Shown piece by piece: positions 8,501-37,364 of a stretch of DNA of 41,048 bases. Both the position numbers and the translations under genes were made by a program. Source of the DNA: Nitrososphaerota archaeon (GTDB lineage: Archaea; Thermoproteota; Nitrososphaeria; Nitrososphaerales; Nitrosopumilaceae); contig JACZTB010000012.1 in assembly GCA_022573895.1 (NCBI GenBank), forward strand, positions 1 through 41,048. Direction: 5' to 3'. Under the pieces are notes generated by a model. That model was not told where the DNA came from. It saw only the letters and a list, made by a program, of their open reading frames with translations, and did not search any database. Numbering within the stretch: the first letter of the stretch is position 1; every line of letters starts with the position of its first letter.

Positions 8501-8583
8501 AATTGGATAGTTGATCGCCTTCAATTAATAATCGTTTTTCAGACTACCAAAAGATACTATATCACTTGTTTCTATCTGGAACT

Positions 8584-9663
8584 GTGAAAATAAGGATAAA
8601 GCGCAATATTGCAAAACATAATCCTGTAGCTCACGGAGGTAGATTCTCTGTAGATAATCGTGATCCTAGTATTGTAGATTTCAGCTCAAACATTAGTCCT
8701 GCTGGAATGCCTACTTCTGTCAAATCAATCTTGAAAAGAAGACTGGATCAAATGGAATACTATCCAGATTCACATTCTAGTGATTTAATATCTGGCCTCA
8801 AAAAATACACTGGATTACCAGAATCAAACCTGATTGTTGGAAATGGTTCAATTGAGATAATCTATAATTTCTGTAGTGCGTTTTTATCAAAAAAACGTAT
8901 TTTGATTCCCGTACCCACATTTGGTGAATATGAGGCTGCAGCAAAACTTGCTGATTGTAAAATTACTTTTTTTAAAACAATGAATCTTGCTAAAAATCTT
9001 AATTCTTTTACTTCTCAAATTCCTGTAAATGGATGCATCTTTGTGTGTAATCCAAACAACCCAACTGGAACTATTTTGTCTAAAAAACAACTGATTAAAA
9101 TTCTACTATCTGCTAAACGTAAATCTTGTCTTGTATTTGTTGATGAATGCTTTATTGAGCTGGTTCCACAATCAAATCAATCTATACTAAATTTAGTAAA
9201 AACATATGATAATCTTTTTGTACTAAGATCACTTACAAAATCATTTGGTCTAGCTGGTATTAGAATTGGATATGCAGGAGCTTCAAAACAAATTATAACT
9301 ATTCTACAAAAGATGAAAATTCCTTGGAGTGTTAATGCTTTAGCTCAAGAGGCAGGCATAATTGCAATCAAAAACAAATCACATCTTATTGAATCAAAAT
9401 CTATCATAAAAAAAGAATCTCGTTTTCTTAAAAACAAGATTGCTGATATACAAGGCTTTCAGTGTCATAACTCTTCAACTAACTTTATTTTGATTAAAAT
9501 AAAACAAGACTCTACAAAACTCCAAAGAAAATTACTAAAACACAAAGTTTTGATTCGAGATTGTAAAAGCTTCCGTGGCCTCAATAACCATTACATTAGA
9601 ATTGCAATAAAGTCTCACAAAGATAATCTAAAACTAGTAAGAGCATTGGAGGCAGAAGCATGA
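8584..9663 (+). CDS. cobD: threonine-phosphate decarboxylase-like aminotransferase (cobalamin)
   Basis: About 359 residues. Class I/II PLP fold close to HisC, but with the N-terminal N-P-V-A-H-G-G-R motif typical of CobD/CobC. C-N-P-N-N-P-T-G, V-D-E-C-F-I-E and the PLP lysine in S-L-T-K-S-F-G-L-A-G-I-R are present. CobD makes (R)-1-aminopropan-2-yl phosphate for the nucleotide loop of B12. Position at the head of the cobalamin operon supports this over a second histidinol-phosphate aminotransferase, since a true hisC is in the his operon. The start is GTG 8584 (TTG 8566 is an alternative); TACTATAT near 8554-8561 would allow a leaderless GTG start. Confidence 0.85.
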   Translation: MKIRIKRNIAKHNPVAHGGRFSVDNRDPSIVDFSSNISPAGMPTSVKSILKRRLDQMEYYPDSHSSDLISGLKKYTGLPESNLIVGNGSIEIIYNFCSAFLSKKRILIPVPTFGEYEAAAKLADCKITFFKTMNLAKNLNSFTSQIPVNGCIFVCNPNNPTGTILSKKQLIKILLSAKRKSCLVFVDECFIELVPQSNQSILNLVKTYDNLFVLRSLTKSFGLAGIRIGYAGASKQIITILQKMKIPWSVNALAQEAGIIAIKNKSHLIESKSIIKKESRFLKNKIADIQGFQCHNSSTNFILIKIKQDSTKLQRKLLKHKVLIRDCKSFRGLNNHYIRIAIKSHKDNLKLVRALEAEA

Positions 9664-10499
9664 AATCTTTAATGGTTCAGGGAACCACTTCTGGTGCTGG
9701 TAAAACTACTCTAGTTGCAGCATTATGCAGAATATTTTCTGACAAGAACTATAGTGTGGCTCCATTCAAGTCACAAAATATGTCTAACTTTGGCTATGCC
9801 ACGCCTGATTTTGAGATATCTCGTGCTCAGGCAATTCAGGCGATAGCTGCAAGATGCCAAATCACGCCAGATCTTAATCCTATAATGCTCAAACCATTGG
9901 GAAATTACTATAGTCTAGTCTATCTTAACGGTAAGCGTTACAAGAAAATGCATGCAAAGGAATACTATGCAAAATTTGTAAAATCAAAAGGAATCAAAGC
10001 CGCAACTGATTCTTTATCTAGACTCAAGAAAAATTATGATTTAATAATTTTAGAGGGCGCTGGTTCCCCTGCTGAAATCAATTTACAAAAATATGATATT
10101 GCAAATATGCAAATTGCTCAGAAAGCAAATGCATCTGTTTTGTTAGTATCAGATATTGATAAGGGAGGATCTTTTGCAAGTATTGTTGGAACTATGGCAC
10201 TAATTGAGAAAAAATATCAAAAACTAGTCAAGGGATTTGTATTTAACAAGTTTCGTGGAGATATTGATATACTTAAGCCAGGATTTAGAAAACTAAAACA
10301 AATTACAAAGATTCCTGTTTTAGGAACTATTCCAATGATCAAGATAAATCTACCTGAAGAGGATTCACTTGATGCAAAACCAAAAGAGATTGCTTGGACC
10401 AAAAATAATATTGCTAAAATAGACAGAGAATTAGATAAGTTAGCAAAAACTGTAAAAAACAATTTAGATATCAAAACAATTGAGAGTATGATAAAATGA
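9660..10499 (+). CDS. cobQ: cobyric acid synthase, synthetase domain only
   Basis: 279 residues. The ATP-binding loop G-T-T-S-G-A-G-K-T-T is at residues 8-17. P-F-K-S-Q-N-M-S-N follows at about 36-44, E-G-A-G-S-P-A-E-I-N at 130-140 and S-D-I-D-K-G-G-S-F-A near 165. This is the dethiobiotin-synthetase-like half of CobQ/CbiP, which amidates the b, d, e and g carboxylates of adenosylcobyrinate diamide. Family members usually run to about 480-500 residues with a C-terminal glutaminase domain; here the protein ends after the linker, and the next gene starts 4 nt before the stop, so nothing has been lost by a recent frameshift. Ammonia or a separate glutaminase must supply nitrogen. Confidence 0.9.
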   Translation: MKSLMVQGTTSGAGKTTLVAALCRIFSDKNYSVAPFKSQNMSNFGYATPDFEISRAQAIQAIAARCQITPDLNPIMLKPLGNYYSLVYLNGKRYKKMHAKEYYAKFVKSKGIKAATDSLSRLKKNYDLIILEGAGSPAEINLQKYDIANMQIAQKANASVLLVSDIDKGGSFASIVGTMALIEKKYQKLVKGFVFNKFRGDIDILKPGFRKLKQITKIPVLGTIPMIKINLPEEDSLDAKPKEIAWTKNNIAKIDRELDKLAKTVKNNLDIKTIESMIK

Positions 10500-11467
10500 T
10501 CCTAGAGCCTATTGTAATTATTGCATTTGCATTAGGAATGGACTTTGTATTCGGAGATCCTAAGAATAGATATCACCCAACTGTATGGATTGGAACACTA
10601 ATTGCAAAGCTAACATCACTAGCTAAAAATCAAAATACGTATGTTGAAAAACTTGGAGGAATCTTTGTAGTTGCAATAACTGTAGGAGTTGTAGTTACAT
10701 TACTTTTAATTTTAGATACTGGAATTTCATTACTTACAACTGACTGGGTAACCATTGTTGTTTCAGGTGTAGTTGTAGTAATACTACTCAAGACCACTAT
10801 TGCTATTCGTGGAATGGAAAAACATGCCAAAGCAGTATTGGAGTCACTTGACCAAAACAATCTTGACATGGCTAGAACAAATCTATCCATGATTGTTAAA
10901 AGAAATACCAAAAATTTGGATAAAAATCACGTTATTTCAGGCGTACTTGAAAGCATCAGCGAAAATACTGTAGATGGGATTACTGGACCTTTATTCTATT
11001 TTGCTCTTTTTGGATTACCTGGAGCATTTGTGTATCGAGTAATCAATACTGTAGATTCAATGATTGGATACAAGACTGATATTTTCAAAAATGTAGGATG
11101 GTTTGGGGCAACCTGTGACACAATTTTAAATTATATTCCGTCTAGGCTCACAGGATTAGTAATGATTATTTCAGCAGCTATTTTACAAAACAATTGGAAG
11201 GAATCATACAAGATAATGATTAGAGATGGCAAAAAAACTGAAAGCCCTAATGCAGGATATCCTATGGCTGCACTTGCAGGAGCACTTGAAACAAAGTTTG
11301 AAAAGATAAATCACTACAAGTTAGGCAATGGCGAAATCATGCTGACAAAAGAACATGTAAACTCTGCACTTACAATGATGAAGCTTACTTCAATTCTTTT
11401 CTTTGGACTAGTAATCATTCCAATAATTACTATTTTATCACTAGTCGGATGGTGGATTCATGCTTAA
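10496..11467 (+). CDS. cbiB: adenosylcobinamide-phosphate synthase (membrane)
   Basis: 323 residues, an integral membrane protein with about five hydrophobic segments. The diagnostic G-D-P-K-N-R-Y-H-P-T-V-W-I-G is at residues 20-33, and S-E-N-T-V-D-G-I-T-G-P near 155-165 is strongly conserved in CbiB. It joins aminopropanol phosphate (the CobD product) to cobyric acid. Overlaps cobQ by 4 nt (ATGA) and cobS by 8 nt, in keeping with translational coupling in the operon. Confidence 0.95.
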   Translation: MILEPIVIIAFALGMDFVFGDPKNRYHPTVWIGTLIAKLTSLAKNQNTYVEKLGGIFVVAITVGVVVTLLLILDTGISLLTTDWVTIVVSGVVVVILLKTTIAIRGMEKHAKAVLESLDQNNLDMARTNLSMIVKRNTKNLDKNHVISGVLESISENTVDGITGPLFYFALFGLPGAFVYRVINTVDSMIGYKTDIFKNVGWFGATCDTILNYIPSRLTGLVMIISAAILQNNWKESYKIMIRDGKKTESPNAGYPMAALAGALETKFEKINHYKLGNGEIMLTKEHVNSALTMMKLTSILFFGLVIIPIITILSLVGWWIHA

Positions 11468-12185
11468 AGAAATTAGTTCTGTTTTTTCTTTTCTGACAAT
11501 CTTTCCATCATCAAATGCAACCCTGGAAAATACTGCAAAATACATGTATCTTTTTCCTATTGTTGGAATTGTAATTGGACTCTTAGTTGGCTCTTTTGGT
11601 TTTGGATTATCTTTCCTTTTAGATCCTTTACTAGTTAGCTTGTTAGTAGTTGCTTCTATTGCAATTGTTACTGGAATTCATCATGCAGATGGCTTGGCTG
11701 ATTTTGCTGATGGGCTTATGGTAAAAGGAAGCAAAGATAGAAAGCTAAAAGCAATGAAAGACCTTTCTACGGGTTCCGCAGGAATTGTTGGAATTGTTTT
11801 GTATCTTGTTGGTTTGATAATAACAATTTCTCTCACAAGTGGATTTGATTTGTTTAGGGCAATTCTGATTAGTGAAATTTTGGCAAAATTCTCAATGGTG
11901 CTAATGGCTAGTCTGGGAAACTCAGCCTCACCAGGCTCAAATTCTCCTTTTGTAAAGATTATGAAAGATAAGAAAAAACTTTCAGCTGCATTCATCATTA
12001 TGCTAATTCCAGTAATTGCTATTGGTGAAACTACTGGGCTAGTAATGCTTGGAGTAACTGTCACTCTAACCTTATTTCTTCTAGCAATATCTAATCGTAG
12101 TTTTGGTGGAATTACTGGTGATGTCCTTGGTGCTACAAATGAACTTACAAGATTGGCTTCTTTGGTGGTATTTGTATCGATATGA
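11460..12185 (+). CDS. cobS: adenosylcobinamide-GDP ribazoletransferase
   Basis: 241 residues, hydrophobic with five to six membrane segments. The signature H-H-A-D-G-L-A-D-F-A-D-G-L-M at about residues 70-83 and the following D-x-S-T-G-S-A-G are typical CobS. It catalyses the last step of the nucleotide loop, joining GDP-cobinamide and alpha-ribazole (phosphate). Length is normal for the family. It overlaps cbiB by 8 nt and cobY by 4 nt. Confidence 0.95.
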   Translation: MLKEISSVFSFLTIFPSSNATLENTAKYMYLFPIVGIVIGLLVGSFGFGLSFLLDPLLVSLLVVASIAIVTGIHHADGLADFADGLMVKGSKDRKLKAMKDLSTGSAGIVGIVLYLVGLIITISLTSGFDLFRAILISEILAKFSMVLMASLGNSASPGSNSPFVKIMKDKKKLSAAFIIMLIPVIAIGETTGLVMLGVTVTLTLFLLAISNRSFGGITGDVLGATNELTRLASLVVFVSI

Positions 12186-12766
12186 TTGGTCTTGTGATGG
12201 CAGGCGGTAAAGGCATTCGCATGAATTTAGATAATGAAAAACTATTACTCAAATACAAAAAACCCATAATCCTTCATGTAATTGACTCATTAAAAAATTC
12301 AAATTGTTTTTCAAAAATTTTAGCTGTTACTAGTCCCAATTCACCTAAAACAAAAACGTTATTGCAAGAAAATAATGTTGAAACTTTTGATACCCCTGGA
12401 ATTGGTTATGTAAAAGACCTAAATCTAGCACTTAAAACTATCAATGATTTAGTTTTAGTTACTTCTGGTGATCTCCCATTATTAGATAAAGAAGTCATAC
12501 AAAAAATTGTAACTCACTATGATTCTCAAAATATTTGGACTAGCATTCTTGTCACAAACAAATTTTTGATGACTCTTGGAATTGAATCTGATTATTCTGT
12601 AAATTTTGATAATCAAGAATGTCATTATACAGGAATTTCTTTAGTTAATTCAGAAAAAATTTCTTCACTTAAAAATTTTGAAGAAAATTATGTTATAATT
12701 GATGATAAGAGAATTGCATTTAATCTAAATACTAAACAAGACTATGATTTACTCAGCGCTACCTAA
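12182..12766 (+). CDS. cobY: GTP:adenosylcobinamide-phosphate guanylyltransferase, archaeal type
   Basis: 194 residues. The nucleotidyltransferase N-terminus M-A-G-G-K-G-I-R-M at residues 6-14 matches CobY, the archaeal replacement for bacterial CobU; S-G-D-L-P-L-L near residue 95 is the metal/nucleotide site. It makes GDP-cobinamide for CobS. Last gene of the cobalamin operon. Its 3' end overlaps by 18 nt the 3' end of the convergent S27e gene, so both strands code there. Confidence 0.88.
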   Translation: MIGLVMAGGKGIRMNLDNEKLLLKYKKPIILHVIDSLKNSNCFSKILAVTSPNSPKTKTLLQENNVETFDTPGIGYVKDLNLALKTINDLVLVTSGDLPLLDKEVIQKIVTHYDSQNIWTSILVTNKFLMTLGIESDYSVNFDNQECHYTGISLVNSEKISSLKNFEENYVIIDDKRIAFNLNTKQDYDLLSAT

Positions 12767-36175: not shown

Positions 36176-36763
36176 ATGAAACTACGGAAAGCATCAATTA
36201 AACGAAGTACCAAAGAAACTAGCATTCAAGTATCTGTTAATCTAGATGGAACAGGAAAAACAAGCATCAAAACAGGCATTAATTTTCTTGATCACTTGAT
36301 TGTATCTTTTGGTAAACATAGTATGATGGATCTGAAAGTTGATGCAAAATCAAATGATGGAATTGAACACCACCTAATTGAGGATACTGCAATTACAATA
36401 GGACAAGCAATTGATAAAGCATTAAGCACAAGAAGTGGAATTACAAGATTTAGTTATGCATCTGTTCCAATGGATGAATCTCTTGCTGAAGCTTCAATTG
36501 ATTTAGTTAAGCGTCCATTTTGGAAGTTGACTTTGTCAATTAAACGAAATAAAATTGAAGACATCTCTAAAGAAGATCTAGAGCACTTTTTCCAATCGTT
36601 GCTGCAAAATCTGAATATCTGTGTTCACCTTACTGTAAAGTATGGTGAAAACGATCATCACAAAGTAGAGGCTGCCATAAAGTCACTTGCTGTAGCATTT
36701 AGAATGGCATCATCGTATGACAAAAAACAGAAAGGCATTCCAAGCACAAAAGGTTCAATGTAA
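36176..36763 (+). CDS. hisB: imidazoleglycerol-phosphate dehydratase
   Basis: 195 residues from ATG 36176; GTG 36167 is a longer alternative. Manganese-binding histidine motifs H-H-L-I-E-D near 60-65 and D-H-H-K-V-E-A near 160-166, plus F-L-D-H-L near 38-42; the final I-P-S-T-K-G is the usual end. Single-domain form, so the phosphatase half fused to HisB in some bacteria is absent. TAATG overlap with the next gene. Confidence 0.96.
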
Positions 36764-37092
36764 TGGTTAGTGTCGCAATTTTTGATTATGGTGCTGGAAA
36801 TATTTTCAGCCTGAAAAATTCACTTGAAAAAGCAGGAGCTTCAGTTGATGTAATTACTAGTTTTGACAAACCTAATGAATACTCTGGTTTACTACTTCCT
36901 GGTGTAGGAAACTTTGATCCTGCAATCAAAAGCATTACTCAATTTTCAAAAACTGGATTCAATGATTTCGTAAAAAACATTCCTGTTTTAGGAATTTGTC
37001 TTGGAATGGAGATGTTTTTTGAAAAAAGTGAAGAAGGAAAGGAAAAAGGCTTGGGAATTATGGACGGTGAGGTAATTGTTCTTCCACTATGA
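36763..37092 (+). CDS. hisH: HisH N-terminal half with catalytic Cys (split gene)
   Basis: 109 residues, the first half of the glutaminase subunit of imidazole-glycerol-phosphate synthase. I-F-D-Y-G-A-G-N near 6-13, P-G-V-G-N-F near 46-51 and the nucleophile Cys79 in L-G-I-C-L-G. It ends at TGA 37090-37092 after ...G-E-V-I-V-L-P-L, just where a normal HisH would run on into V-P-H-M-G-W-N. The next ATG overlaps the stop as ATGA in a different frame (minus one). Either two coupled subunits or a frameshifted gene. Confidence 0.85.
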   Translation: MVSVAIFDYGAGNIFSLKNSLEKAGASVDVITSFDKPNEYSGLLLPGVGNFDPAIKSITQFSKTGFNDFVKNIPVLGICLGMEMFFEKSEEGKEKGLGIMDGEVIVLPL

Positions 37093-37364
37093 AAGTACCT
37101 CATATGGGATGGAATAATTTAGAGATAAAAAAACCAGGTAAGCTTTTAGAAGGAGTTGAGAATGGTTCTTGGGTTTATTTTGTACACTCGTATAGAGTTA
37201 GACCAAATTCTGATGATGTAATCACTGCAGAATCTGATTATGGAATTAAAGTTCCAGCAGTAGTTGAACAAGACAACTTTTTTGGAACCCAATTTCATCC
37301 AGAAAAATCTAGCTCAGTAGGAAAAATAATGATAAAGAACTTTCTTGATGTGTGTAAAAAATGA
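37089..37364 (+). CDS. hisH: HisH C-terminal half with His/Glu of the triad (split gene)
   Basis: 91 residues beginning M-K-V-P-H-M-G-W-N, the normal mid-sequence of HisH. It has Y-F-V-H-S-Y near 30-35, and the remaining glutaminase residues H70 and E72 in Q-F-H-P-E-K-S. Joined to the previous half the protein would be about 200 residues, the usual HisH length, with one base-level frame change at 37089-37092. It overlaps hisA by 4 nt. If expressed alone it cannot hydrolyse glutamine without the Cys half. Confidence 0.85.
   Translation: MKVPHMGWNNLEIKKPGKLLEGVENGSWVYFVHSYRVRPNSDDVITAESDYGIKVPAVVEQDNFFGTQFHPEKSSSVGKIMIKNFLDVCKK

Follow-up and report, generated by a model that had tools for sequence, protein, structure and literature searches.

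The cobalamin operon and its short cobQ gene

The window analysed here, a 41,048-nucleotide stretch of contig JACZTB010000012.1 from a Nitrososphaerota archaeon of the family Nitrosopumilaceae, carries a cobalamin operon on its forward strand. Within it lies cobQ (9660..10499, +), which reads as an open frame of 279 amino acids plus stop, beginning with ATG. This start codon overlaps the 3' end of an upstream aminotransferase gene of the threonine-phosphate decarboxylase CobD type (8566..9663, +; TIGR01140, 292 bits against a cut-off of 290.55). Downstream lie cbiB, encoding adenosylcobinamide-phosphate synthase (10496..11467, +; TIGR00380, 280.9 bits against 165.9), cobS (11460..12185, +; TIGR00317, 173.9 bits against 110) and a gene for a cobY-like nucleotidyltransferase (12182..12766, +) that scores below the cut-off with both NF045495 (83.3 bits) and TIGR00454 (95.7 bits). 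As an earlier note on this DNA had claimed, the next gene begins inside the last codons of cobQ, with cbiB starting at 10496 in a 4-base ATGA overlap. Elsewhere in the window, hisH (36721-37364) reads as two overlapping frames, about 36721-37092 and 37071-37364; since a close relative (L270, from genome G151) has a single intact hisH of 202 aa at the equivalent place, a base error in the window's assembly is likely.

The same note had described this CobQ as lacking its glutaminase domain, and the profiles bear this out. Pfam gives CbiA/AAA_26-type synthetase matches to the 279-aa protein and no match to GATase_3 (PF07685), a domain that is also absent in alignment. The cobyric acid synthase profile NF001989 is matched at 337.5 bits against a cut-off of 273, with only positions 1-244 of its 480 covered. 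Against TIGR00313, whose cut-off is 309.9 bits, the protein falls short at 299.4 bits, and a short relative from family f2 (L123) scores 320.9 bits. The protein is a variant of a known enzyme, cobyric acid synthase. Among named relatives it is closest to thaumarchaeote assemblies from marine and brackish settings (96-99% identity), and then to Nitrosopumilus. The short form is common to 80 loci, those kept from 102 in a scan of relatives, with frames of 274-300 aa apart from one of 258 aa that is truncated by a contig end (L083). An assembly artefact was rejected.

The short enzyme very probably works, judging from its sequence and its setting. The synthetase motifs GTTSGAGKT (the P-loop), QNMSN, EGAGSPAEIN, DIDKGGSFAS and NKFRGD are invariant or nearly so in 34 sequences from ammonia-oxidising archaea (AOA). 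Purifying selection is evident in dN/dS values of 0.05-0.13 against three near relatives and of 0.073-0.17 within the genus (28 pairs), in a set from which L128 was left out and in which L127 and L129 repeat L034 and L036. No second CobQ-like match of comparable score was found in the window's genome. Nitrosopumilus maritimus is reported, in a passage of PMC8281238, to make cobalamin, and B12 gene clusters are described as conserved in AOA in the relevant part of PMC4303638, where the missing domain goes unmentioned. We therefore consider it very unlikely that the protein is not a working cobyric acid synthase, being degenerate or acting on another substrate. The TIGR00313 score below cut-off and the altered motifs of comparable short CobQ-like proteins in other archaea would fit such a reading, but the near-invariant motifs, the low dN/dS, the conserved operon with no comparable second match in the genome, and cobalamin synthesis in N. 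maritimus all argue against it.

Internal excision and the retained tail

The earlier note had also held that the gene ends at the linker, and this claim was dropped. The ATP-dependent, dethiobiotin-synthetase-like domain (residues 1-237; 9660..10370, +), supported by profiles, conserved motifs and a predicted fold matching 1dae, is followed by a short variable linker (residues about 238-247; 10371..10400, +), delimited by alignment and adjoining a low-confidence block of the predicted model (pLDDT 62). In alignment this linker is the site at which full-length CobQ holds its glutaminase domain of about 215 aa. Beyond it are retained C-terminal tail helices (residues 248-278; 10401..10493, +), with a predicted helix at 248-268 in a block of pLDDT about 79-98. 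These last 30 or so residues align with the extreme C-terminus of full-length CobQ, beyond the glutaminase. An HMM of the tail, built from the 34 AOA short CobQ sequences, has its best match at the extreme C-terminus in 22 of 26 domain-bearing CobQs, 18 of these with an independent E below 0.01; its sole match lies elsewhere in one of the 26 and there is none in three. A reversed-sequence control gave no match better than E 0.18. Because the end of the short protein matches the C-terminus of the full-length one, the glutaminase was excised internally while the fold-closing tail was kept.

Predicted models agree with this arrangement. Short CobQ (pLDDT 91.6, pTM 0.91) and a full-length CobQ, L120 (pLDDT 90.9, pTM 0.91), were both matched by the dethiobiotin synthetase structure 1dae, over residues 1..274 in the former (Z 19.6, rmsd 3.1, 211 aligned) and residues 10..508 in the latter (Z 19.3, rmsd 3.2, 211 aligned). 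As 1dae spans both, the tail completes the synthetase fold in each of them, and the glutaminase is an insert that AOA have removed. This BioD structure is the nearest solved fold to the CobQ synthetase plus tail, although its substrate and chemistry are different and identity is only 18%. Full-length CobQ/CbiP (TIGR00313, NF001989) shares with AOA CobQ the synthetase domain and its motifs, the C-terminal tail and the operon setting, whereas the short AOA form is without the internal GATase_3 domain and its Cys/His glutaminase site. In CbiA, unlike CobQ, a tail-like helix precedes the glutaminase, as indicated by weak tail-HMM matches.

Distribution of the domain and its dead intermediates

A full-length query of 516 aa, in which the glutaminase domain starts near residue 262, was searched against 80 chosen genomes of the class. 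There was no match past residue 265 in any of the 15 genomes of family f1, two of which have CobQ in broken pieces, or in 36 of the 37 genomes of f8, the remaining one (G371, 66% complete) having no CobQ match. Six of seven f2 genomes likewise had no match extending into the bulk of the glutaminase half, and both f3 genomes have a full-length CobQ. Matches extended through residue 462 or further in 19 of 19 genomes of f6, f7, f13, f14 and f22, all AmoA-negative families. AmoA (PF12942) occurs in 249 of 400 genomes of the class, all of them in f1, f2, f3 or f8; a directed search found it in four of four genomes of f2 and f3 (G054, G038, G177 and G037) and in none of 20 genomes of f6, f7, f13, f14 and f22. 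Family f1 is Nitrosopumilaceae, and we take f8 to be Nitrososphaeraceae and f2 to be Nitrosocaldaceae. The f2 genus g46 is presumably Ca. Nitrosothermus, given 31% GC in the stretch read and 31.9-33.1% in a passage of PMC7819960, and f3 probably corresponds to Ca. Nitrosomirales (compare the description in part of PMC10811736).

Several irregular frames were seen among these genomes. Four f1 loci, high-GC genomes among them, have CobQ frames of 340-535 aa in which the surplus is N-terminal and mainly an upstream extension of the open frame (L179, L180, L181 and L182). In an AOA genome that is otherwise one contig, CobQ is broken into two frames (L185:4275-5115, G158). A contig titled Phycisphaerales bacterium (L039, JAJDDH010000291.1) carries an AOA-type cobQ at 84% identity and is probably a mis-binned archaeal contig.

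Beyond AOA the short length is not usual. At a threshold of 1e-15, 43 genomes from elsewhere in the phylum had a match; 39 were full-length (two with an internal stop), three were short and one was broken. The three genomes with only short CobQ-like proteins (G517, G611 and G698; 304-319 aa) show that short forms are not unique to AOA. In these proteins EGAGSPAEIN is altered and the tail is similar, and they score far below CobQ cut-offs. Short CobQ-like ligases outside the class were located at L241:2978-3892, L242:453-1394, L243:1608-2549 and L244:366-1325, and no cob genes were seen near them.

The domain-bearing CobQs contain what appear to be stages of its loss. In an alignment of 26 of them, which left out L161 (an X in its sequence), L251, L254, L261 and near-copies, the catalytic Cys and His are both kept in 24. 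The His sits in a YLHG motif, and the pair corresponds to C94/H189 of GatD; a passage of PMC5871853 describes the surroundings of that GatD pair as conserved in CobQ. Every aligned CobQ from AmoA-negative relatives has the pair intact. In AmoA-bearing f3, one protein (L162) has His replaced by Tyr, and the catalytic His is also missing from the second f3 sequence (L161) in a separate alignment. In AmoA-bearing f2/g46 (L178), the Cys has become Asp, the His is absent and the domain has decayed. Among the matches listed, GATase_3 scores for CobQ lie at 160-207 bits and descend to 77.5, 75.8 and 45.4. CbiA keeps both Cys and His in all six AOA examined, including one from f3 and one from f2/g46, and the loss is thus specific to CobQ.

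The two f3 proteins share 80.7% identity in the synthetase and 57.3% in the glutaminase, yet AmoA-negative pairs also show such a gap, mostly smaller, so the f3 gap alone is a weak sign of relaxed evolution. The identity of only 26-32% between the glutaminases of f3 and f2/g46 and those of AmoA-negative genomes is the stronger sign.

Two trees bear on the number of excisions. The first, of all 64 sequences with tail columns included, united the forms lacking the domain and left f3 and f2/g46 out of that group (98/94). For the second, 11 of the 64 were dropped (three short CobQ-like proteins from outside the class, five from f42 and three from f22) and columns past window residue 237 were removed. 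On these synthetase columns, the CobQs of AmoA-bearing genomes form one clade (100/96), within which f1 and f8 form another (100/99) and f2 is one group at 82/78, not starred and of modest support. This topology points to one excision in f2/g2 and another in f1+f8. We lean towards at least two excisions, while the first tree would permit a single one. We conclude that the domain has truly been lost across the lineage, leaving fossil stages, and that within the class this loss is limited to AmoA-bearing families.

Because AOA are one clade in the CobQ tree, any link with ammonia oxidation draws on a single lineage, perhaps with two or three steps within it. It is conceivable, though on balance rather improbable, that the loss was a lineage accident unrelated to ammonia oxidation and was tolerated since B12 synthesis needs little amide nitrogen. 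Such an accident would be compatible with ammonia use, and it would accord with the single clade, with the short CobQ-like proteins in three genomes outside the class and with the retention of the CbiA glutaminase. However, the lesions differ between f3, f2/g46 and the rest, and within the class they are confined to AmoA-bearing families. Another possibility, which we rate about evenly, is that CobQ in AOA passed from a dead domain to domain loss as ammonia oxidation made its glutaminase dispensable, four of the amide nitrogens of B12 then coming from the cell's ammonium pool.

Nitrogen donor and a probable switch to ammonia

A missing glutaminase could also be encoded elsewhere. MurT/GatD and euryarchaeal GuaA are split enzymes, and by analogy the CobQ glutaminase domain might have become a separate gene. 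In the genome of the window (G000; 97.7% complete, 92 contigs), GATase_3 matched three proteins: CbiA, at full length (451 aa, 152.6 bits), and, weakly, two others that we take from their sequence features to be PdxT and PurQ. The search for an orphan glutaminase that the earlier note had proposed therefore found none in this genome, where the only strong CobB/CobQ-type glutaminase is fused in CbiA. Complete AOA genomes have one strong, CbiA-sized match and weaker ones of PdxT or PurQ size, and no orphan CobQ glutaminase was recognised in AOA, in both cases among the matches listed (56 genomes searched with GATase_3). A simple gene split is thus largely refuted and we consider it extremely unlikely. 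Among solved structures, GatD is most closely related to the CobQ glutaminase domain, but MurT/GatD is encoded by two genes and its glutaminase subunit is active, and a GatD-like orphan was not found in the window's genome by the GATase_3 search.

A glutaminase of another kind may instead act in trans, whether specific to CobQ or shared. Two orphan class I GATases occur in the window's genome. The better candidate, of a type represented by L225, is an orphan of 180-190 aa (180 aa in this genome, G000:C32:7944-8486, also L230:7944-8486). The other (L224:1420-2103, G000:C16) has 227 aa and lies near a gene reading as glutamate dehydrogenase. The L225 type, with a Cys and an FHPE-motif His, is present in the window's genome and in nine of nine other AmoA-bearing genomes (f1, f2, f3 and f8). 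Of five AmoA-negative genomes, G041 alone yielded a frame of this size among those fetched, and this frame scores like an unrelated GATase. Amidotransferases usually have committed glutaminase subunits, as noted in part of PMC3376133, which also favours a partner. Against it, the L225 type matches PF00117 and is not of the CobB/CobQ type; in the AOA loci that were inspected its gene lies next to one for a large protein, which is UPF0182 in the window's genome, and often one for a TPR protein, but not next to cobQ. Furthermore, a dead domain of the kind seen in f3 and f2/g46 should block the docking face that a partner would need. The persistence of these dead domains suggests that the switch to ammonia preceded excision and speaks against a partner on the same face. 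We consider action in trans unlikely, although it is the chief rival to direct use of ammonia, and the existence of an AOA-wide orphan GATase remains a counterpoint to the ammonia reading.

We think it likely that the short protein is a true cobyric acid synthase which in AOA no longer needs glutamine and depends on ammonia. Its nitrogen donor would be free ammonia, with ammonia oxidation as the presumed reason. In full-length CobQ, the glutaminase interrupts the chain, separating the synthetase core from the fold-closing helices. Its activity was probably lost first in AOA, as the absence of the catalytic His in f3 (two genomes) and of both Cys and His in f2 (one genome) suggests, and the domain would then have been excised, probably on two or more occasions, leaving the fold-closing tail in place. 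CobQ chemistry relies on ATP activation of the b, d, e and g carboxylates of the corrinoid substrate; the remaining enzyme would retain this step, and the activated carboxylates would be amidated by free ammonia reaching the synthetase site from solvent. Dependence on ammonia fits the distribution well: AmoA-bearing families have lost or inactivated the domain, AmoA-negative relatives keep it intact, and domains that are dead but still present form the intermediates.

Similar routes are known in other amidotransferases. The fold of NadE differs from that of the CobQ synthetase. Single-domain archaeal NadE is, like short CobQ, a synthetase without a glutaminase, and a passage of PMC3376133 describes such an archaeal NAD synthetase as working with ammonia. 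The single-domain form of NadE is judged ancestral in the source passage, whereas short CobQ would be derived, by loss within a full-length family. In human CPS1, Ser replaces the Cys of the glutaminase, according to part of PMC4655335, and the vertebrate enzyme moved to free ammonia after its glutaminase was inactivated, a stage that the f3 and f2/g46 CobQs resemble. CPS1 retains its dead domain, whereas most AOA CobQs have removed theirs, and ammonia use is established for CPS1 and inferred for CobQ. Short CobQ is likewise without a functional glutaminase site when compared with these two ammonia-dependent enzymes.

Many AOA inhabit environments with very low external ammonia. The high internal ammonium on which the earlier note relied is an assumption, and intracellular ammonium in AOA is stated to be not known in a section of a review (PMC10432482). 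If free ammonia were plentiful, CbiA and other glutaminases might decay too, and CbiA has not.

No description of the loss of the CobQ glutaminase in AOA was found in the literature searched (open PMC papers). For annotation, we caution that the short cobQ scores under one standard CobQ cut-off (TIGR00313). The series of dead, decayed and excised domains offers a rare staged view of an amidotransferase abandoning glutamine. AOA have been implicated in global B12 production, as stated in part of PMC4303638, and if their CobQ is ammonia-dependent, one step of B12 synthesis would be tied to cellular ammonium. If this is true, CobQ would be a genomic sign of the cytosolic ammonium level of AOA.
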